From: a virus
IMG/VR virus record: IMGVR_UViG_3300031974_003220
Coordinates: 1-25,176 of that record
DNA: 25,176 nt
Strand: one strand, 5' to 3'
A program made the position numbers and the translations under genes. Under the pieces are notes generated by a model. The model had not been told where the DNA came from. It worked only from the letters and a program-made list of their open reading frames with translations, and ran no database searches. Positions 4,269-17,663 of the stretch are shown here, in pieces. Within the stretch, counting starts at the first letter, position 1; every line of letters starts with the position of its first letter.

Positions 4269-4988
4269 ATGCCATTACCAAAGATTTCAACACCAACTTA
4301 TGAGTTGAATTTGCCATCAACTGGAAAGAAAGTTCAATATAGACCATTTCTGGTTAGAGAAGAAAAACTTCTAGTATTAGCACTAGAGAGTGAAAATGCA
4401 AAAGATATTACTACAGCAATGAAGACAGTTATTAAAAACTGTATTCAAACGCGAGGCATTAAAGTAGAATCACTTCCTACATTTGATATCGAATATTTGT
4501 TCCTCAACATTCGCGGTAAGTCTGTTGGAGAAGAGATTGAAGTGAATGTTATTTGTCCTGATGATGAAGTCACTACTGTTCCTGTAACACTGAATGTTGA
4601 TGATATTCAAGTTCAAAAAAGTCCAGAGCACACAAACAACATTAAACTTGATGATGACTTAGTGATGGAAATGAAGTATCCTTCACTAGATCAGTTCATT
4701 AAGAACAACTTTGATTTTTCTGAAAACAGTGCAATGGATCAATCCTTTGAACTGATTTCATCTTGTATTGATAAAATTTATAACTCTGAAGAAGTTTGGT
4801 CTGTTGCTGATGTAACCAAGAAAGAAATCACTGACTTCTTGGAACAAATGAATTCAAAGCAGTTCAAACAAATTGAAAAGTTCTTTGAGACGATGCCTAA
4901 GTTATCTCACGAAATCAAGGTAAAGAATCCTGCAACAGGGGTTGAAAGCACTGTTGTATTGGAGGGACTTGCTAGTTTTTTCGGATAG
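4269..4988 (+). CDS. 26: Baseplate hub assembly protein gp26 (zero-frame product)
   Basis: This 239-aa protein resembles the T4 gp26 family (T4_baseplate; T4 gp26 is 208 aa), needed for hub assembly. Evidence: MPLPKISTPTYELNLPSTG, then VQYRPFLVREEKLLVLALES, a Thr/Val-rich beta middle region and a helical end (EITDFLEQMNSKQFKQIEKFF). This layout, an N-terminal 'RPFLVREEK' and a helical tail, also fits tail-assembly chaperones of the gpG type. The last codons are AGT TTT TTC GGA TAG. This is a T_TTT_TTC slippery heptamer in phase, so a fraction of ribosomes probably shift into the following 55-aa frame. It is followed directly by the tape-measure-like gene. Confidence 0.7.
   Translation: MPLPKISTPTYELNLPSTGKKVQYRPFLVREEKLLVLALESENAKDITTAMKTVIKNCIQTRGIKVESLPTFDIEYLFLNIRGKSVGEEIEVNVICPDDEVTTVPVTLNVDDIQVQKSPEHTNNIKLDDDLVMEMKYPSLDQFIKNNFDFSENSAMDQSFELISSCIDKIYNSEEVWSVADVTKKEITDFLEQMNSKQFKQIEKFFETMPKLSHEIKVKNPATGVESTVVLEGLASFFG
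4976..4982 (+). promoter_or_regulatory. Probable -1 ribosomal frameshift site (T_TTT_TTC)
   Basis: In the gp26 frame the codons are AGT TTT TTC GGA TAG, so TTTTTTC is an in-phase X_XXY_YYZ heptamer two codons before the stop. A shift back by one base enters a frame that is open from 4982 to 5164. A perfect palindrome, GGTCCATATGGACC (4993-5006), can form a hairpin 10 nt after the heptamer and could stimulate slipping. Confidence 0.65.
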
Positions 4989-5167
4989 CCCTGGTCCATA
5001 TGGACCTTGAAACATATTATACGCTCAACTTTTCCTTGATGCAGTATCATAAATATTCATTAACAGAGATTGAAAATATGATGCCTTGGGAGCGTGATAT
5101 TTACGTTGCTATGTTGAAGAATCATTTAGAAGAAGAAAAACTCAAGCAGCAGCAAAATGGGTCCTGA
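4982..5167 (+). CDS. -1 frame extension of gp26 (gpT-like); standalone ATG at 5000
   Basis: This frame is open from the slip site and would add 61 residues after residue 238 of gp26, giving a product of about 299 aa. Read as its own gene it starts with ATG at 5000-5002 and encodes 55 aa: MDLETYYTLNF, LMQYHKYSLTEIENMMPWER, DIYVAMLKNHLEEEKL. There is no Shine-Dalgarno before that ATG, which lies inside the palindrome. The content (short helical, 'F-Y-LMQYHKYSLTEIENM' then a charged helix) and position right before the tape measure fit the T part of G/GT tail-assembly chaperones, which bind the tape measure during tube growth. It is far shorter than T4 gp51 (249 aa). It overlaps the next gene by 11 nt. 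Confidence 0.6.
   Translation, partial: RIALVHMDLETYYTLNFSLMQYHKYSLTEIENMMPWERDIYVAMLKNHLEEEKLKQQQNGS
4993..5006 (+). repeat. Perfect 14-nt palindrome (possible hairpin)
   Basis: GGTCCATATGGACC is its own reverse complement and can fold with a 5-bp GC-rich stem and ATAT loop. It begins 10 nt after the slippery heptamer and contains the ATG of the short downstream frame. It may serve as the frameshift stimulator or hide that start codon. Confidence 0.6.
5048..5055 (+). promoter_or_regulatory. Possible late promoter before the tape-measure gene
   Basis: CATAAATA fits the N-ATAAATA late core and points toward the gene at 5157, about 100 nt downstream, inside the short gpT-like frame. The distance is longer than for the other late promoters here, so it is tentative. 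Confidence 0.3.
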
Positions 5168-7148
5168 CGATTTAGACAATCTACTAGCAAGCATACGTTC
5201 AGGGGAAGGACCCGCTGAACTGGATGAGTTATTGGAAAGTATTAGATCAGAAGGAAAGAAAGAACGTGGTGGTGCTCTAGCGTTATATCAAGGGACCAGG
5301 GGAACTGATTTAGTTGATGAGTATATTGATGAGCGAGTTTTAAGAATATTAGGATTAGGTCAAGTATTTGATATTGACTACTCAACTTATCTTACTTTAT
5401 TGAAAGAAAAGTTAGTACAAGTTAGTATGGGTGGCGGTTCACTTGCAAGAGAGGAGCAAATGCTCTTGCAAGATGAATTCAAAAGAGTCAAAGGAAAGGT
5501 TGGAAGATTTAAATTAAAAGCAAAGACAGCACAAATATCTAGTGGGTTAGGATCAGCACCAATACGGATTTCAAAAGAAAAGTTTTACTTAACAAGTAAT
5601 GCTGTCATACCTAAAAGTCCTTCAATTGAAAAGGTATCTGAAGACTTAAAGGGAGTGCAAGAAGCACTTGATAAGTTACTTGCAGAAATAAGAGCAGATA
5701 ATAAAGAAGAAAAGCGTCAGGCAGAAATAGAAAGAAGAAATAAAATAAGAAATAGAAGAATTGCAAGGGAAAAATTATTAGAAACGTCGCAAAAGAAAGT
5801 ATCGACGGTTGTTACAAAATTAGTTTCTCCACTTAGAGGAATACTTGATAATATTTTTAGATTCTTGTTCTTTGGATTTTTAAGTGGGGCAGTACCTAAA
5901 CTTATTGAATGGTTGGCAGATCCTGCTAATAAGGAAAAAGTTGATGCAATGTTTAGGTTCTTAAAGGACTTTTGGCCTGCAATAGTAGGTGGTCTTGCAC
6001 TATTCTTTACTCCTTTTGGTAGTTTTGTAAGAGGAATACTTGGAATACTTAGTAAGTTTGTTCCTGCTCTTGCAAAACTGGCAATAAAAAATCCAAAAAT
6101 TGCTGCAGCAGTTGGCATTGGTGCTGCGACTGCTTATTTGGCAGGACAATCACAAAAAAGTGCATCGCAAGTATTAGAAGAAAGTGGAAAGGCAGGAGCA
6201 TCTCCACAAGAACAAGCAGAAGAACTTTCAAAACCTGCTAATATATTTCAAACAATTCTTCGTACCCTATATCCTCCTTTAAATGAACCAGTAGAAGGTC
6301 GTTCTAATGGGGGAGAAATATTAGGAAAAGGATTTTTACAAAGAAAGATTACTCCTCAAACTGGAGTGAAAATTAAAGGTGCTGGACCAGATACACAACT
6401 AGTTGCACTGCAACCTGGTGAATTTGTTATGGCTAAAAGAGCAGTGGATACTTATGGTCCACGCTTCTTTATGAATATAAATGAGTCTGTTGGTGCAACA
6501 AATATTCCAAAGTTCAGCAAAGGAATTCAATTTGCTAATAATGGTGGAATTGTTGGAGGACTTCAAGGTTTGATGACATCAATGAGTGGTGTTGGTAGTC
6601 TTGCAGGTTCTTCTACATTAGGAGCAAATGTTGGTGGTCTTATGGGATCATCAACATCAATGAATAGGGTTGGTGGTCTTACAGGTTCTTCTTCTGCATA
6701 TAGTAGTCCTGGCAGACTTGCAGGTTCTTCTACTCCAAAAAGTAGTCCTGGAGGTCTTACAGGTTCTTCTACAATAATGAGTCCTCCTGGAGGTTTTAGT
6801 GGTTCTAGAACAAGTTCTAACTATATCAAACCTTCCACAAAGTTTGGTCCATCTTTGATGAAAGCAGTTACTTCTGCTGCATCAACAAAATCACAGGCAC
6901 GAACTAATGGACCAAGAGTAACTTATAAGAATCCAAAAATTGTTTCACAACAAATGAAAGCACCACCAGGACCTCCAGTAAGGTCAATGAGACCAAATGT
7001 GACAATGTTACCAGAAATTGTGCGTGGTGCTGAAAGTCAAATGATGGAACCAGCATCTAATATGAGTATTCCAAGTTTCTCTGCATCACAGTCAAACTCT
7101 AGTAGAGACTTAAACTTTGCTGTTTACGGAATAGAGGGGATGAACTGA
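5157..7148 (+). CDS. Tape-measure-like tail protein, 663 aa
   Basis: This is probably a tail tape-measure protein or its functional partner, threaded in the tube lumen and setting tail length. It has an acidic N-terminus with two copies of an LDxLLxSIRSxGxxxEL-like segment (about 5-32), a charged coiled-coil (ADNKEEKRQAEIERRNKIR, about 180-205), and a hydrophobic stretch (about 225-335) with several possible membrane segments and an Ala-rich IAAAVGIGAATAYL. An LVALQPGEFVMAKRAVDTYG motif (about 418-437) follows; similar 'PGEFVvxKxA' motifs are typical of tape measures. Residues 465-555 are seven 13-residue repeats (GGLxGSST type). It directly follows the gp26/-1 frame pair, as expected of a tape measure. 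T4 gp29 is 590 aa; sequence similarity to it is not evident by eye. Confidence 0.6.
   Translation: MGPDDLDNLLASIRSGEGPAELDELLESIRSEGKKERGGALALYQGTRGTDLVDEYIDERVLRILGLGQVFDIDYSTYLTLLKEKLVQVSMGGGSLAREEQMLLQDEFKRVKGKVGRFKLKAKTAQISSGLGSAPIRISKEKFYLTSNAVIPKSPSIEKVSEDLKGVQEALDKLLAEIRADNKEEKRQAEIERRNKIRNRRIAREKLLETSQKKVSTVVTKLVSPLRGILDNIFRFLFFGFLSGAVPKLIEWLADPANKEKVDAMFRFLKDFWPAIVGGLALFFTPFGSFVRGILGILSKFVPALAKLAIKNPKIAAAVGIGAATAYLAGQSQKSASQVLEESGKAGASPQEQAEELSKPANIFQTILRTLYPPLNEPVEGRSNGGEILGKGFLQRKITPQTGVKIKGAGPDTQLVALQPGEFVMAKRAVDTYGPRFFMNINESVGATNIPKFSKGIQFANNGGIVGGLQGLMTSMSGVGSLAGSSTLGANVGGLMGSSTSMNRVGGLTGSSSAYSSPGRLAGSSTPKSSPGGLTGSSTIMSPPGGFSGSRTSSNYIKPSTKFGPSLMKAVTSAASTKSQARTNGPRVTYKNPKIVSQQMKAPPGPPVRSMRPNVTMLPEIVRGAESQMMEPASNMSIPSFSASQSNSSRDLNFAVYGIEGMN
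6549..6821 (+). repeat. Tandem 39-bp (13-aa) repeats in the tape-measure-like gene
   Basis: Six clear units run from 6588 to 6821, each 39 nt and encoding variants of xVGGLxGSSTxxx, preceded by one degenerate unit at 6549-6587. The frame is kept exactly, so unit gain or loss would not break the gene. Confidence 0.8.
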
Positions 7149-7149
7149 T

Positions 7150-10100
7150 ATGAAAAGAATAGATCCTAAAAAACTATTACCATCATCAGTCCCAGCAGGA
7201 GGTTCATTTGGTTCTGTATCTCCAAATATATTAGTACCTGTTTCTAATATAACTGCCAAAACTTATGCAAAGGTAGAACCAGAAGAGAATACACCACAGA
7301 AAAGTCAATTAAGAGCACAGACATTTCAGATAAAGTCGAAACTTATTGAAGTTTCTAAATTATTTTCTGTTAAAAATAAATTTACTAGAGATAAGAATAG
7401 AAAGAAACGAATTGAAGAAGAAAGAGAAAGAAGAGAGCAAAGAGAAAAAGAATCTGAAAGAACTACTTTTAACTTTGGTGTAGGACTTCCAAAATTAGTT
7501 TTACCAAGAACTGGGTTTTTAGATTCCATTAAGAGATTCTTACTTTATAGTTTACTTGGGTTTGCTGTTGAAAAATTCTTACCATTAGTTCCAAAATTAT
7601 TGGAATTTGGTAAAATGTTGATTCCAGCAGTACAGTTCTTATCGGACTTTGCTGGAAACTTCCTTGTCAATATGGTTAATTTTATTGATAGAGGTTATAA
7701 AGTATATGATGGTATTAAAGAACAACTTGACCGTATTATACCACCAGACATTTCCAAACAATTTAGTGAGTTTTCTGGTATTTTAAATGCTGCTTTAAAT
7801 ACTGCACTATTTCTTGGTACTGCTGCTATTGGATTAGGTGGACCACTTGGAAAACTTGGCATTGGTGCAAGAGAACTTGGAACTGGTATTGCAGGTGCCG
7901 CTGCTGCAGCAGGTTATGCTAGTAGATACACTTTTAGAACTGTAAAAGATACTGCGCCAATTTTAAGTTCGAGATTATCTAATATGATGTTGAGGACCAG
8001 TATGGGTCTTCCTGCGGCAAAAGTATTACCAACTAAAAAAGCACTAAGAATTCCAGAATTTGCCCTTCAATATAAAGCACAAAAACCAAGTTATACATCT
8101 GCAAAAGACAAAGCAATTGCTGAAAGTATTGTTGAAGGTGCTCTAGATTCAACAAATCAAGCACTTAGAAAACGTGGAATGGGTGTCATTGATGATGCTG
8201 CAGGTAGAAATGTTGCTAGAAATGTTTTAAGATCAATTGGTTTTGGTAATACTGTTGGACCAAATGAACCATTAAGACCCCTTAAAAAAAGTATAGATGT
8301 AGAAAAAATATTTTCTACATACAATCAACCATCCCTTTTTGGACTGGGAAAAAGATTTAAAAAGAAACTGCGTGAAGATGCAGATGCTAAGTTTCTTGAA
8401 AGTCTTGATAAAGACCCAAATTTAAGAGCAGGAGCTGAACAACAGGCTGCAATTGATATAAAGAAACAGCGAGATGTTGATTTGGACAAGTATCTGAAAA
8501 ATATTCTTAATCTTTCAGATGAAGAAATTGATAAACAATTTAAACGTCCAGAAACATCAAGGCAATTAGAATTTGATCTTGAAAAACCAAAAACTCCTGC
8601 AGGACGTAGGAAAAATATATTAGCACGTCTTCTTGGAGGTCCAGGAGAACAAGATCTATTAGACACTCTGAATAAGGGAGCATTTGATTCTGTATCAAAA
8701 CCAAAAGTAACTAGAGTCAGTCCAACACAAGAAGTTGCAAAAGGAATTTCTAAATTTAAATTTGGTGGATTGCGAAAAGCAGGTCCTGGTATTTTTGGTG
8801 CCTTACTTGATATTGGTATTTCTTTAGCACTTGGCGAACCACTTGATCGTGCTGTAGTATCTGCTATTGGTGCTGGACTTGGTGGATGGCTTGGTGGTGT
8901 TGCTGGATCAATTGTTCCTGGTCTTGGTACTATTATTGGAGGAACACTTGGTTCTATGCTTGGTGGTGTCATAACACTTTCTCTTTATGATACTATCTTT
9001 AAGAAAAGACCACGCGGCGATATTATGAGAAGACCACCAGAAGATCCAAAAGAAAAACTAAAAAGACAGATAAAACTAGAACGACTTGAAGGTGGTGGAA
9101 CATATGATGCATATGGTACGGTATCAGCACCATATGTTCCATTTGGATCATATTATTCAATTCAAGATTTGGTTAGACTGGCATTATCTGTTGGATTTAA
9201 AAAAGAAAATGCTGCTATTGCTGCTGCTATTGCAATGGCAGAATCAAGTGGTAATCCAAACAATCACAATGAAAAATACCCAGATAATTCATATGGATTG
9301 TGGCAGATTAATATGCTGGATGAACCTGGTTATATGTTGGGTGAAGAAAGAAGAAGAAAGTTTAATATTAAAGATAACAATGAACTATTCAACCCAACTT
9401 TAAACGCACAGATTGCATATAAACTTTCTGGTGGATATAATTTCAATGCTTGGACTACTTATACTAACGGTAGATATAGAACATTTCTTCGTGCAGCACA
9501 AGAAGCACTTCAAAAGACATCTACAACACCAGTAATACCCAAACCACAAAGTTCATTACCACCATTACCACCAACAAATACTGTTCATGGACAACATTAT
9601 GGTGCTTCTCGAAGTGGTGGCAGACAGCACGCTGGTGTTGACTTTGATATTAGTGGAGATGAAGTTTTCTATTCAAGAATTGGTGGTCAAGTGATTGGTA
9701 TTTACAATGATCCTGGTGGATATGGAAATTATGTAGATATCTACAATAAAGATTTGAATGTAACAGAAAGAATTGCAGAAGGTGCAGTTGTTTTAGTTTC
9801 TCTTGGAGATGTTATTCAACCAGGAACACCAGTTGTGAGGGGAGAAACTGGAACTGGTGTGATTCATTATGAAATAAGAAGAGGAAAATCTGGTTCTGGT
9901 GGATCATTCTCTGGAACATTAAATCCAATAGACTTTTTAAATAATCTTCCCAAACAGAGAGCAAGTATTTCTAAACCATCCACAACAAATATTGCAAAAG
10001 GTCTTGATGAGAAGACATCATATGAAGATGATAATGTTGAAATTGCGTTGCTTCCTATTAAAGAAATAATTGAAAAACCCGTTCCCATTGGTGGTAGTGG

Positions 10101-10164
10101 TGGCGGAACCTTTATAGATACTACTAATAGTTCAAATATATTTGCACCTGCACTTATAGGTTAA
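7150..10164 (+). CDS. Tape-measure/cell-puncturing protein with SLT and degenerate M23 domains
   Basis: This 1004-aa multidomain protein probably acts at DNA entry. Residues 1-130 mirror the upstream 663-aa protein: a charged coiled-coil (RKKRIEEERERREQREKE, about 85-102), then LDSIKRFLLYSLLGFAVEKF and LPLVPKLLEF. Residues 185-300 and 540-630 are hydrophobic or Gly/Ala-rich, with possible membrane-inserting segments. Residues about 668-785 are a soluble lytic-transglycosylase-like domain: AIAMAESSGNP with putative catalytic E698 and SYGLWQIN (714-721). Residues about 812-925 resemble an M23 metallopeptidase: H827-A-G-V-D831 and H906-Y-E, which are the usual zinc ligands. The first His of HxH is V904 and no YxH motif is seen, so peptidase activity is doubtful. 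It lies 1 nt after the previous gene. In T4 the tail lysozyme is in gp5; here the wall-cutting domain is on this protein. Confidence 0.7.
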   Translation: MKRIDPKKLLPSSVPAGGSFGSVSPNILVPVSNITAKTYAKVEPEENTPQKSQLRAQTFQIKSKLIEVSKLFSVKNKFTRDKNRKKRIEEERERREQREKESERTTFNFGVGLPKLVLPRTGFLDSIKRFLLYSLLGFAVEKFLPLVPKLLEFGKMLIPAVQFLSDFAGNFLVNMVNFIDRGYKVYDGIKEQLDRIIPPDISKQFSEFSGILNAALNTALFLGTAAIGLGGPLGKLGIGARELGTGIAGAAAAAGYASRYTFRTVKDTAPILSSRLSNMMLRTSMGLPAAKVLPTKKALRIPEFALQYKAQKPSYTSAKDKAIAESIVEGALDSTNQALRKRGMGVIDDAAGRNVARNVLRSIGFGNTVGPNEPLRPLKKSIDVEKIFSTYNQPSLFGLGKRFKKKLREDADAKFLESLDKDPNLRAGAEQQAAIDIKKQRDVDLDKYLKNILNLSDEEIDKQFKRPETSRQLEFDLEKPKTPAGRRKNILARLLGGPGEQDLLDTLNKGAFDSVSKPKVTRVSPTQEVAKGISKFKFGGLRKAGPGIFGALLDIGISLALGEPLDRAVVSAIGAGLGGWLGGVAGSIVPGLGTIIGGTLGSMLGGVITLSLYDTIFKKRPRGDIMRRPPEDPKEKLKRQIKLERLEGGGTYDAYGTVSAPYVPFGSYYSIQDLVRLALSVGFKKENAAIAAAIAMAESSGNPNNHNEKYPDNSYGLWQINMLDEPGYMLGEERRRKFNIKDNNELFNPTLNAQIAYKLSGGYNFNAWTTYTNGRYRTFLRAAQEALQKTSTTPVIPKPQSSLPPLPPTNTVHGQHYGASRSGGRQHAGVDFDISGDEVFYSRIGGQVIGIYNDPGGYGNYVDIYNKDLNVTERIAEGAVVLVSLGDVIQPGTPVVRGETGTGVIHYEIRRGKSGSGGSFSGTLNPIDFLNNLPKQRASISKPSTTNIAKGLDEKTSYEDDNVEIALLPIKEIIEKPVPIGGSGGGTFIDTTNSSNIFAPALIG

Positions 10165-11499: not shown

Positions 11500-11718
11500 A
11501 TGTCAGAAAAATCACTACAACAACATATTAATGATGATAGGGATGAACTGGACAACCCTAACTTGAGTCCACAACGCCGTCGTCATATTGAATCAGAACT
11601 TGATGACTTGGAAAAGTATCAAGCAAATCATCCAGATGAAGATCACGATCCTACACCACTTGAAATGTATTGTGATGTGCATCCTGATGCAGATGAGTGC
11701 AGAATCTATGAGGACTGA
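11500..11718 (+). CDS. CP12-like protein (putative Calvin-cycle regulator)
   Basis: This acidic 72-aa protein ends in PLEMYCDVHPDADECRIYED (53-72). That matches the C-terminal signature of CP12 (YC-x8-EC-R-[VI]-Y-[ED]-[DN]) including Cys58 and Cys67 with eight residues between. In cyanobacteria this redox-sensitive C-terminal loop binds GAPDH, and CP12 then also holds phosphoribulokinase, switching off the Calvin cycle. The N-terminal Cys pair of full CP12 is absent; residues 28-44 (RHIESELDDLEKYQANH) may stand for the central helix. Cyanophages are known to carry cp12 and are thought to use it to divert carbon to the pentose-phosphate pathway. Unusually, it sits between the gp27-like and gp5-like tail genes, with gaps of 5 and 2 nt. 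A virion part that resembles CP12 by chance is less likely. Confidence 0.7.
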   Translation: MSEKSLQQHINDDRDELDNPNLSPQRRRHIESELDDLEKYQANHPDEDHDPTPLEMYCDVHPDADECRIYED

Positions 11719-14438: not shown

Positions 14439-15239
14439 ATGAGTTCAGTTAATCACGGACCATCTCACGAAGACGGTCCAGTATATGTTACTAGTGAGAT
14501 TGCAACACCTTTACCGATGAAAGATGTCATTGGTAGAGATATTACTGGTGCTGCTTATATTCAAGGTCCAGTTCAGATGGGAAGACCCACTGATTTTGTG
14601 ACACGATGGGCAACATTAATGGTTGGTGGTCTTGAAAATAATCAATGCGAACCACCTATTATTCCTGGTGCTCTTTGTCCTGGTCCTCTGAATAACCCAT
14701 ATTCTTTAGGTGTTGTTGGAGATGCTGCAATTCTCAATAACCTTGATGTATCAGTAAATATTCGTGCTGGGGCAAATATTATTGCACAAGGAGAAGTGAT
14801 GTCTCGTTGTGGTTCTCATATCTTATCTGCAAAGAAAAACTTTGATATCCCACACCCAACCAAAGAAGGTTGGAGACTGCGCCACACCTGCCCAGAAGGT
14901 CCCTCAAACGATGTTTACACACGCGGTAGAGTAAAGGGAACGGAAATTTATCTTCCTTCCTACTGGAAAGGTCTTGTAGATGAAACTACACTTACAATTA
15001 CACTCACTCCTATTGGTTCTCATCAGGATGTAATTATCAAACGTTGGGATGAGGAGAAAGTATATCTACAATCAAAAGGAAATATGCCAATCGATTGTTT
15101 CTATCAAATCTTTGCGGAACGAAAGGATGGTGAGAGACTAATTGTTGAGTATGAAGGAGAAACACCAGCAGATTATCCTGGAAATAATGACGAATATTCT
15201 GTTTCTGGATATCACTATGACACAAAGGAGAATAATTGA
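14439..15239 (+). CDS. Fibre/virion structural protein, paralogue A
   Basis: This 266-aa protein probably belongs to the tail tip or fibres. The N-terminus (1-130) has Pro/Gly-rich segments and a short beta shaft (VVGDAAILNNLDVSVNIRAG). Residues about 134-242 form a domain beginning NFDIPHPTKEGWRLRHTCPEG, with LPSYWKGLVD, TLTITLTPIGSHQDV and a final AERKDGERLIVEYEG. The 'F-I-x-HP...L.H...EGP...Y.G....LP.YW..L' domain recurs at the ends of cyanophage structural proteins and bacterial fibre-like proteins. The following gene carries the same domain. It starts 4 nt after the spike gene and its TGA overlaps the next ATG. A virion location is inferred from context. Confidence 0.6.
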   Translation: MSSVNHGPSHEDGPVYVTSEIATPLPMKDVIGRDITGAAYIQGPVQMGRPTDFVTRWATLMVGGLENNQCEPPIIPGALCPGPLNNPYSLGVVGDAAILNNLDVSVNIRAGANIIAQGEVMSRCGSHILSAKKNFDIPHPTKEGWRLRHTCPEGPSNDVYTRGRVKGTEIYLPSYWKGLVDETTLTITLTPIGSHQDVIIKRWDEEKVYLQSKGNMPIDCFYQIFAERKDGERLIVEYEGETPADYPGNNDEYSVSGYHYDTKENN

Positions 15240-15892
15240 TGGCTGAACCAACACCATTTGTACAAAGACAGGTAGGAGTAAAAAACTGTGATGGTGATGT
15301 TATTGGCATCAAACATCCAGACTTTGACTACATTCATAGATCCACCACAGGTGATGACGAATATCCTGAAGATGCCTGTCCAAGATATCTTCAAGTAAAT
15401 GGTAAGTTTGATGCACTTCAAGTTGTAAACAATACTACTGTTGGTGGAAACGTTCAAGTAACTGGAAATGTAACAGCAACAGAAGTTACTGCTAATGGAA
15501 TTACACTTACTTCTAGAAAATCATTTGATATTCCACATCCAGTCAAAAAAGGATATCGTTTGAGACACGTTTGTCTTGAAGGTCCAGAGGCAGGTGTTTA
15601 TTACAGGGGAAGACTTACAAACAGTAATATCATTGAACTTCCCGAATACTGGAGAGGTCTTATTGACCCAGAAACAATTAGTGTATCTTTAACTCAAATC
15701 AAAACATCACAAGATTTAATTGTTGAAGAAATTGAGTGGGGCACAAGAATCAAAATCAAGTCGGGTAATGGAACTGGTATTGACTGCTATTATCTTGTTC
15801 ACGCAGAGCGAAAGGACGGCGAGAGACTGATTGTTGAGTATGAGGGTGATACCTATCCAGGAGACGACAGTCAATACAGTCTGAACCGTTGA
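15239..15892 (+). CDS. Fibre/virion structural protein, paralogue B
   Basis: This 217-aa protein shares the C-terminal domain of the gene before it (about residues 95-209: SFDIPHPVKKGYRLRHVCLEG, LPEYWRGLIDPETISVSLT, AERKDGERLIVEYEG), while its N-terminus differs and carries a short beta shaft (NNTTVGGNVQVTGNVTATEV). I chose ATG at 15239 rather than the in-frame TTG at 15236 because AAAGGAG (15224-15230) is 8 nt upstream of the ATG and TGATG overlap is the local habit. The stop TGA (15890-15892) lies inside the -35 box of the next transcription unit. It is the last gene of the long tail operon. Confidence 0.6.
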   Translation: MAEPTPFVQRQVGVKNCDGDVIGIKHPDFDYIHRSTTGDDEYPEDACPRYLQVNGKFDALQVVNNTTVGGNVQVTGNVTATEVTANGITLTSRKSFDIPHPVKKGYRLRHVCLEGPEAGVYYRGRLTNSNIIELPEYWRGLIDPETISVSLTQIKTSQDLIVEEIEWGTRIKIKSGNGTGIDCYYLVHAERKDGERLIVEYEGDTYPGDDSQYSLNR

Positions 15893-16287: not shown

Positions 16288-16380
16288 GGGAGTGTAGCTC
16301 AATTGGCAGAGCGGGAAGCTTATACCTTCCGTATGCACCAGATTAGTGCGCGGTTGGGGGTTCGAGTCCCTCCACTCCTA
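16288..16380 (+). tRNA. tRNA with anticodon UAU (Ile-AUA) and a long variable arm
   Basis: The cloverleaf is visible by eye. The acceptor stem is GGGAGTG/CACTCCT and the D stem GCTC/GAGC. The anticodon stem GGAAG/CTTCC has loop CTTATAC (anticodon TAT). The T arm is GGGGG-TTCGAGT-CCCTC, and the discriminator is A. The variable region is about 25 nt and holds its own hairpin (GCAC-CAGATTA-GTGC), far longer than the usual 5 nt for Ile. A type II arm with a type I body makes the amino-acid identity uncertain. The 3' CCA is not encoded. Confidence 0.7.
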
Positions 16381-16384
16381 CCTT

Positions 16385-16468
16385 GCGAGTATGGCGGAAT
16401 CGGTAGACGCACCAGACTTAAAATCTGTTGACCTTTTGGTCGTGGGAGTTCAAGTCTCCCTACTCGCA
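16385..16468 (+). tRNA. tRNA-Leu (UAA)
   Basis: Acceptor GCGAGTA/TACTCGC, anticodon loop CTTAAAA (anticodon TAA, reads UUA), a type II variable arm as normal for Leu (TTGACCTTTTGGTCG), and T arm GGGAG-TTCAAGT-CTCCC. UUA is a favoured codon in AT-rich phage genes, so it may aid late translation. Confidence 0.92.
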
Positions 16469-16473
16469 CTTGC

Positions 16474-16490
16474 CCTAAATATCCATTAGG
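16474..16490 (+). promoter_or_regulatory. Short hairpin and CTAAATA motif before the 89-aa gene
   Basis: CCCTAA and TTAGGG are complementary arms around a short loop just after tRNA-Leu and may mark a processing site. The same bases include CTAAATA, close to the late-promoter core, about 25 nt before the next ATG. Either reading is tentative. Confidence 0.3.
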
Positions 16491-16505
16491 GTACGGGATA
16501 ATCCC

Positions 16506-16775
16506 ATGAAATACCGCATAGACACTAGATATGTTTGGTATGATAAGGGCAAAAGAATTGTTCTTATGTATTTCATTCAAGGAATTCCATTCACATTTGA
16601 TGAACTTCCAGATGATGGACTTTATGATTTAAGTCTTATCGACATTGCAGACGGTGAAAAGAAGTGGGAACCAGAAGACCTGTATAACGCTTCATACTAT
16701 CTTGTAGAGGAAGAATTTCATCCTCTTATGTTTGAGTTAGAATTGGAAAATCCAGACATGATGCCCATTGATTAG
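16506..16775 (+). CDS. Hypothetical protein, 89 aa
   Basis: I do not recognise this protein. It is acidic, with a beta-rich N-terminus (TRYVWYDKGKRIVLMYFIQG) and a negatively charged C-terminal half (EPEDLYNASYYLVEEEFHP). It sits between tRNA-Leu and tRNA-Thr with its stop 1 nt before tRNA-Thr, so the tRNAs and this gene very likely share one transcript. No Shine-Dalgarno is evident before the ATG. Confidence 0.55.
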   Translation: MKYRIDTRYVWYDKGKRIVLMYFIQGIPFTFDELPDDGLYDLSLIDIADGEKKWEPEDLYNASYYLVEEEFHPLMFELELENPDMMPID

Positions 16776-16776
16776 T

Positions 16777-16849
16777 GCCCCTGTAGCTCAGTTGGTAGAG
16801 CAATGCTTTTGTAAAGCATTTGTCGCAAGTTCAAGTCTTGTCGGGGGCT
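16777..16849 (+). tRNA. tRNA-Thr (UGU)
   Basis: Acceptor GCCCCTG/CGGGGGC, D stem GCTC/GAGC, anticodon stem ATGCT/AGCAT with loop TTTGTAA (anticodon TGT, reads ACA), variable TTGTC, T arm with TTCAAGT loop, discriminator T. No 3' CCA is encoded. ACA is a common Thr codon in the fibre genes here. Confidence 0.92.
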
Positions 16850-17048: not shown

Positions 17049-17663
17049 GTGAAATCTGATTTTTATATAGATAGAGTTAGTAAAGATGAAGTAAAAGAAC
17101 TTCTTTATACTCATCATTATCTAAAGGATGAATCTAAAGATTTCAAGTCGGGGTATAACTATGGACTTTTTAAACGGACTGAATGGGAATGTCCTCTTAG
17201 GATCGGGAACTGTCTTGCTGCTTGTATTTTTACTGGCCTCCCAGTTCCAGAAATTGCCAGAGGAGCATTTGGACTAGAACGAAATCAACAGGAAGGTTTA
17301 TTTGAACTTTCTCGTTTATGTGTTCATCCAGAAATACAAAAAGAAGAATATAATATCACTTCTTGGTTCGTGAGTCGTTGTATAAGAAAGTTTAAAAAAG
17401 ATACAAATGTGAGAGCAATATTGAGTTACGCCGACTCTGCACATCATAGTGGAATTATATATCGTGCTTGTAACTTTAAATACTATGGTTTAAGTGCTCC
17501 AAAGAAAGATTTTTATTATGCTGACGGCACTAAGCATTCAAGAGGAAGTGTCAAAGGTGCTGAAGGTGAATGGAGAGATAGAACCAGAAAACATAGATAT
17601 TTGATGGTATTTGATAAGGAACTTAAGGTCTTGTGGGATGAAGAAAGTTATGGTATAATTTAA
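17049..17663 (+). CDS. Mom-like DNA-modification protein (GNAT fold)
   Basis: This 204-aa protein resembles the phage Mu Mom family, which converts adenine in phage DNA to a carbamoylmethyl-type base and so blocks host restriction. Motifs in Mom order: HHYLKD (22-27), then a strand LAACIFTGLP (57-66), ELSRLCVHPE (86-95), ITSWFVSRCIRKF (103-115), AILSYAD (123-129), HHSGIIYRACNF (132-143) and a basic KHRYLMVF near 181. These correspond to the 'ELsRLwv...SwFig..lr.l...yp...vSyAD...gH.GtiYqA.nw' pattern of that family. The start is GTG; no in-frame ATG or good Shine-Dalgarno precedes it, so translation may be weak or controlled. It is the last gene before the terminator. A different GNAT acetyltransferase is the alternative. 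Confidence 0.65.
   Translation: MKSDFYIDRVSKDEVKELLYTHHYLKDESKDFKSGYNYGLFKRTEWECPLRIGNCLAACIFTGLPVPEIARGAFGLERNQQEGLFELSRLCVHPEIQKEEYNITSWFVSRCIRKFKKDTNVRAILSYADSAHHSGIIYRACNFKYYGLSAPKKDFYYADGTKHSRGSVKGAEGEWRDRTRKHRYLMVFDKELKVLWDEESYGII

Follow-up and report, generated by a model that had tools for sequence, protein, structure and literature searches.

The window analysed here, a stretch of 25,176 nucleotides from a T4-like cyanophage (IMG/VR record IMGVR_UViG_3300031974_003220), carries on its + strand gene 26 (4269-4988), whose 239-aa product is a member of the T4_baseplate family (PF12322, E=9e-78; phrog_150, E=7e-83) and the candidate short form of a tail assembly chaperone (TAC-N). The 3' end of the gene reads AGT TTT TTC GGA TAG and contains a slippery heptamer, T_TTT_TTC (4976-4982, + strand), in the gp26 phase that a -1 slip requires; GGA is the sole sense codon separating it from the stop TAG (4986-4988). 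A preliminary description of this DNA had claimed such an exactly phased heptamer near the gp26 stop, and it was found as described. A count over 13 genes of the window, with 6745 in-phase positions, gave T_TTT_TTY once, at the end of gene 26. Although these genes encode Phe more often by TTT, TTC is preferred at the A site of the heptamer; the C of this codon is also the first base of CGN, a conserved Arg codon in the -1 frame, which suffices as an explanation, and the idea of a special cause was dropped.

The -1 frame is open from 4976 to 5164 and ends with a TGA (5165-5167) that overlaps the following ORF (ATG at 5157) by 11 nt. The extension that it would add to gene 26 (4982-5167, + strand; 61 codons and the stop) would give a long form of 299 aa (TAC-NC), and the earlier claim that this frame runs open through a 55-aa segment into the tape-measure start proved correct. 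The 55-aa ORF within it matches phrog_634 (E=1e-26), the domain called gp51 in databases, and also the C-terminal end of phrog_150, the profile of the gp26 family (positions 241-280 of 282); this second match was the first sign that gp26 and the small frame form one protein. By itself, one sequence has a chance of approximately 2.5% of showing a -1 open frame this long, so a single sequence is suggestive and it is the comparison of relatives that makes the case.

The next ORF (5157-7148, + strand, 663 aa) is a tape measure candidate, to judge from its position and from weak matches to tape measure profiles (E=4e-4 and 1e-3). Its counterpart in phage Cr30 is annotated as tape measure, and no direct similarity was found between the two. 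A second long ORF follows in tandem (7150-10164, + strand) and has a lysozyme-like domain and an M23 peptidase domain. A hydrophobic stretch in it is weakly similar to one in the 5157-7148 ORF (E=1e-4); both ORFs look tape-measure-like, and either may set the tail length. Further along the + strand, an ORF with a CP12 domain (11500-11718; PF02672, E=1e-12) is placed between tail genes, CP12 being a host-derived regulator of the Calvin cycle. Two adjacent ORFs (14439-15239 and 15236-15892) have a similar C-terminal domain (IPHPxKxGxRLRHxCxEGP ... AERKDGERLIVEYEG), apparently the result of a tandem duplication, and gave no Pfam match. They are followed by three tRNA genes (16288-16849), Ile(tat), with an unusual length of 95 nt, Leu(taa) and Thr(tgt), and by an ORF (17049-17663) that matches the family of Mom (PF25680, E=2e-21), a DNA modification protein for which phage Mu is the best-known source.

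By tblastn, 741 phage records contained relatives of gp26 and 547 contained the small frame, and in the pairs compared the spacing places the small frame in the -1 frame of gp26. Loci were gathered from cultured phages and from IMG/VR, and 338 distinct gp26 loci were compared, 329 of them outside the T-even and Ackermannviridae groups; scans of viral sequences with Cr30, T4 gp26 and Ah1 yielded few loci, and those groups rest on few sequences. In all 329 the heptamer is present in phase, as T_TTT_TTC or T_TTT_TTT, 2 to 10 codons before the stop. The residue that precedes the two Phe varies over seven (Ser, Asn, Asp, Ala, Gly, Thr and His), while T is always the third base of its codon, and TTT encodes the first Phe of the heptamer in every locus. 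Under the codon usage of the genes themselves, and ignoring the relatedness that remains, the probability of finding xxT TTT in all 65 clusters formed at 70% identity is approximately 10^-22. Codon choice is thus fixed at the heptamer while the preceding residue varies, as had been expected of a real slip site.

The -1 extension is equally constant: it is 56-73 aa long and uninterrupted in 323/323 complete cases, and there are no stops in 6250 codons of the -1 frame across 127 clusters, against approximately 10% in the other two frames. Conservation at the protein level begins at the slip, 5' of any ATG, with Arg in 111/127 clusters and His, encoded by both of its codons, in 110/127. The preliminary description had named homologues lacking the heptamer, or with stops in the -1 frame, as what would overturn its proposal, and the 329 loci hold neither. 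A different arrangement is seen in Vibrio Ackermannviridae (loci L006 3180-3405, L177 1710-1920 and L180 1590-1794), in which gp26 ends with CTT TTT or GTT TTT before the stop and a short -1 frame follows; the heptamer is not full, and it resembles the GTTTTT signal of the relatives of phage Adele (PMC12846349).

Ten nucleotides 3' of the heptamer starts a perfect 14-nt palindrome, GGTCCATATGGACC (4993-5006, + strand), which includes the ATG at 5000, both as first described; it can form a modest RNA hairpin with a stem of 5 bp and a loop of 4 nt. When 45-nt stretches were folded along the locus in 127 representatives, a sharp minimum appeared directly past the heptamer, with z averaging -2.18 at +2 nt, in contrast with a background that lies mostly between -0.2 and -0.6 away from it. 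The hairpin stands at an equal distance in most families, with different stems: GGTCC/GGACC here, and approximately 9 and 11 bp elsewhere. In the clade of the window the stem covaries, with GTC..GAC in 10 representatives, ATC..GAT in 10 and a mixed pair in 1 (P 3e-5, a value to be taken, like the others, as a guide only, since the representatives are related to each other). GTT..AAC variants retain the pairing through a change of Asp to Asn, and complete stems are lost when the pairing is shifted by 1 to 3 positions.

The energy of the window hairpin is unexceptional alone (z -0.85 to -2.3, varying with the stretch that is folded), and its support therefore comes from the comparison of the family. 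Like the other comparative checks proposed in the preliminary description, the one on the palindrome came out in favour: position is maintained and compensatory changes occur, though the exact sequence is not kept. Strict conservation of the 14 nt was rejected, since what is kept is a stable hairpin in its place, and some members of the clade lack part of the five-pair stem: in 33/163 distinct clade sequences, fewer than 3 of the 5 pairs form. A search of Rfam returned one sub-threshold match, outside the signal, that was taken as chance. The structural minimum and the covariation, taken together, lead us to regard the palindrome as a real RNA structure, most likely a stimulator of the -1 slip.

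T4 provides a natural control. Its genes 26 and 51 are separate and divergent, and both encode PF12322 proteins. The profile of the shifted cyanophage product matches T4 gp26 with E=1e-26 and T4 gp51 with E=1e-15, and it aligns without gaps with gp51 across the junction into the C-terminal domain, while the alignment with gp26 extends only up to the junction. T4 gp26 is thus the match to the short form and T4 gp51 the match to the shifted long form. The 3' end of T4 gene 26 reads GAG TTC TTT GAG TTA CTA TAA, and the heptamer was found in 0/7 T-even loci; the slip site is thus gone from the T-evens, the group in which T4 encodes its long form separately. Most likely, T4 encodes as the separate genes 26 and 51 the two forms that the cyanophage would obtain from one gene with a slip site. 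The pair that has long been listed as a hub subunit and a hub assembly catalyst and the cyanophage frameshift would then be two routes to the same pair of proteins.

As for function, passages of a review list gp26 and gp51 as hub assembly chaperones and describe T4 gp51 as needed for assembly but not a component of the particle (PMC3004832). AlphaFold2 modelled gp26 with confidence (pLDDT 90.5); among the PDB matches listed for the model, the HK97 tail assembly chaperone (HK97 gp13, 2ob9_B) had the highest probability, 0.63, with a TM of 0.43 normalised to target length and an rmsd of 2.9 across 62 columns, but with E=1.6 it is not significant, and the resemblance is suggestive only. Searches of PDB and NCBIfam with the gp26 sequence gave nothing relevant. 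The proposal that gp26 is a tape-measure chaperone with a long and a short form nevertheless gains support from T4, where gp51 is homologous to the shifted product across the junction and gp26 ends at it, and by analogy with T4 and lambda the products of gene 26 would act as chaperones.

In our judgement, gene 26 is very probably a tail assembly chaperone locus that yields a 239-aa short form and, by -1 frameshifting, a 299-aa long form. This reading draws on what was observed directly: the signals in the sequence, how widely they are conserved, the covariation of the stem, and a shifted product homologous to T4 gp51. From these we infer that slipping at T_TTT_TTC occurs; the literature searched yielded no experimental measurement of frameshifting for any of these phages, and no study recognised there had profiled ribosomes on cyanophage tail genes. 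Most ribosomes would stop at the TAG at 4986 and release the short form. A fraction would be paused by the hairpin (4993-5006) and slip back one base, with both Phe tRNAs pairing again on TTT TTT, after which CGG would be read as Arg and 61 codons of the -1 frame would be translated into the long form, ending where the tape measure ORF starts. Together, the two forms would presumably bind and stabilise the tape measure during tail assembly, like gpG and gpGT of lambda.

The main competing explanation is that gp51 is a separate 55-aa protein initiated at the ATG at 5000 (5000-5002, + strand) and coupled to the gp26 stop, the heptamer being incidental. This is the start inside the hairpin that an annotator would pick; it lies 11 nt past the gp26 stop, gp51 is annotated as a gene of its own in many records, and its annotated start overlaps the gp26 stop in Cr30, YB07, VP-1 and KVP40-like phages. 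Among relatives, however, that start is annotated at differing points or the gene is omitted, an ATG is found at this place in just 43/127 clusters, no ATG occurs within the first 12 codons in 55/124, and 3 clusters lack ATG, GTG and TTG in the first 26 codons. Separate initiation is also at odds with the conservation of the -1 frame protein 5' of the ATG, with a heptamer that is invariant against codon usage, and with T4 gp51, which is a natural fusion. The absence of a Shine-Dalgarno sequence before 5000, invoked in the preliminary description, is true and carries little weight, as the start at 5157 has no evident one either. Accordingly, we judge the ATG at 5000 not to be a real start, and separate initiation seems to us very unlikely. 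A related idea, also unlikely, gives the hairpin a double role, stimulating the slip and hiding the internal ATG; if it were true, ATG-bearing clades might release the free C-terminal domain as a third product under some conditions, which could alter the balance of short and long chaperone.

The long form could also arise from slippage of RNA polymerase on the T run, which would give a mixed population of mRNAs. Slippage is conceivable in principle on a run of six T (seven in Cr30, pf16 and phiM12), but six is short for a process that usually needs eight or more; moreover, the strict codon phase and the downstream hairpin suit ribosomal slipping, and the run is ended by the C that opens the conserved Arg codon of the -1 frame, all of which makes polymerase slippage exceedingly improbable. 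There is next to no likelihood that the -1 frame stays open by chance or is a remnant in decay that yields no product: the single-sequence probability given above is what can be said for it, and it is already refuted by conservation, namely the absence of stops across the 127 clusters and the presence of a recognised domain whose codons vary synonymously. Ribosomal frameshifting is the reading retained here.

The layout of the locus recalls that of G and GT in lambda, where the short form likewise ends just past the slip site, the -1 extension gives the long form and the tape measure gene is next; Xu, Hendrix and Duda (2004, Mol Cell 16:11-21) are said to have described this conserved frameshift in tail genes, including lambda G/GT. 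The likeness to gpG/gpGT that had been claimed holds for the heptamer and for the open -1 extension, and may extend to the next ORF with its weak tape measure matches. The lambda heptamer is GGGAAAG, and lambda differs in this and in having experimental proof; the similarity meant here is one of layout. For T4-like phages themselves, Vladimirov et al. reportedly set out the chaperone role and frameshift of this gene family in Virology in 2022, and the abstract is said to describe frameshifting as conserved in several groups of T4-like phages, with T4 itself using genes 26 and 51. That system concerns the same gene family as cyanophage gene 26, which leaves less of the surprise that the preliminary description implied in a frameshifted chaperone within a T4-type operon: the idea is right but was anticipated. 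What is added here is the scale of the conservation, the covariation of the hairpin and the case against separate initiation.

Passages of later papers, citing the 2022 work, mention that the short-form genes of T4-like phages have poly-T signals for -1 frameshifting (PMC12846349) and that some T4-like phages instead have two genes, a short and a long one (PMC10885494). Genes 26 and 51 would have their annotation corrected in hundreds of genomes of cyanophages, which record the one frameshifted gene as two or omit its second part, and the conserved heptamer with its covarying hairpin constitutes a defined, testable frameshift signal for cyanobacterial ribosomes. A comparable locus in Vandenendeviridae and Andersonviridae, as set out in passages on phage Adele (PMC12846349), has a conserved poly-T -1 frameshift upstream of the tape measure gene that was likewise missed in public annotation; it differs from the cyanophage locus in its motif, GTTTTT as opposed to the full T_TTT_TTC, and in belonging to other phage families.
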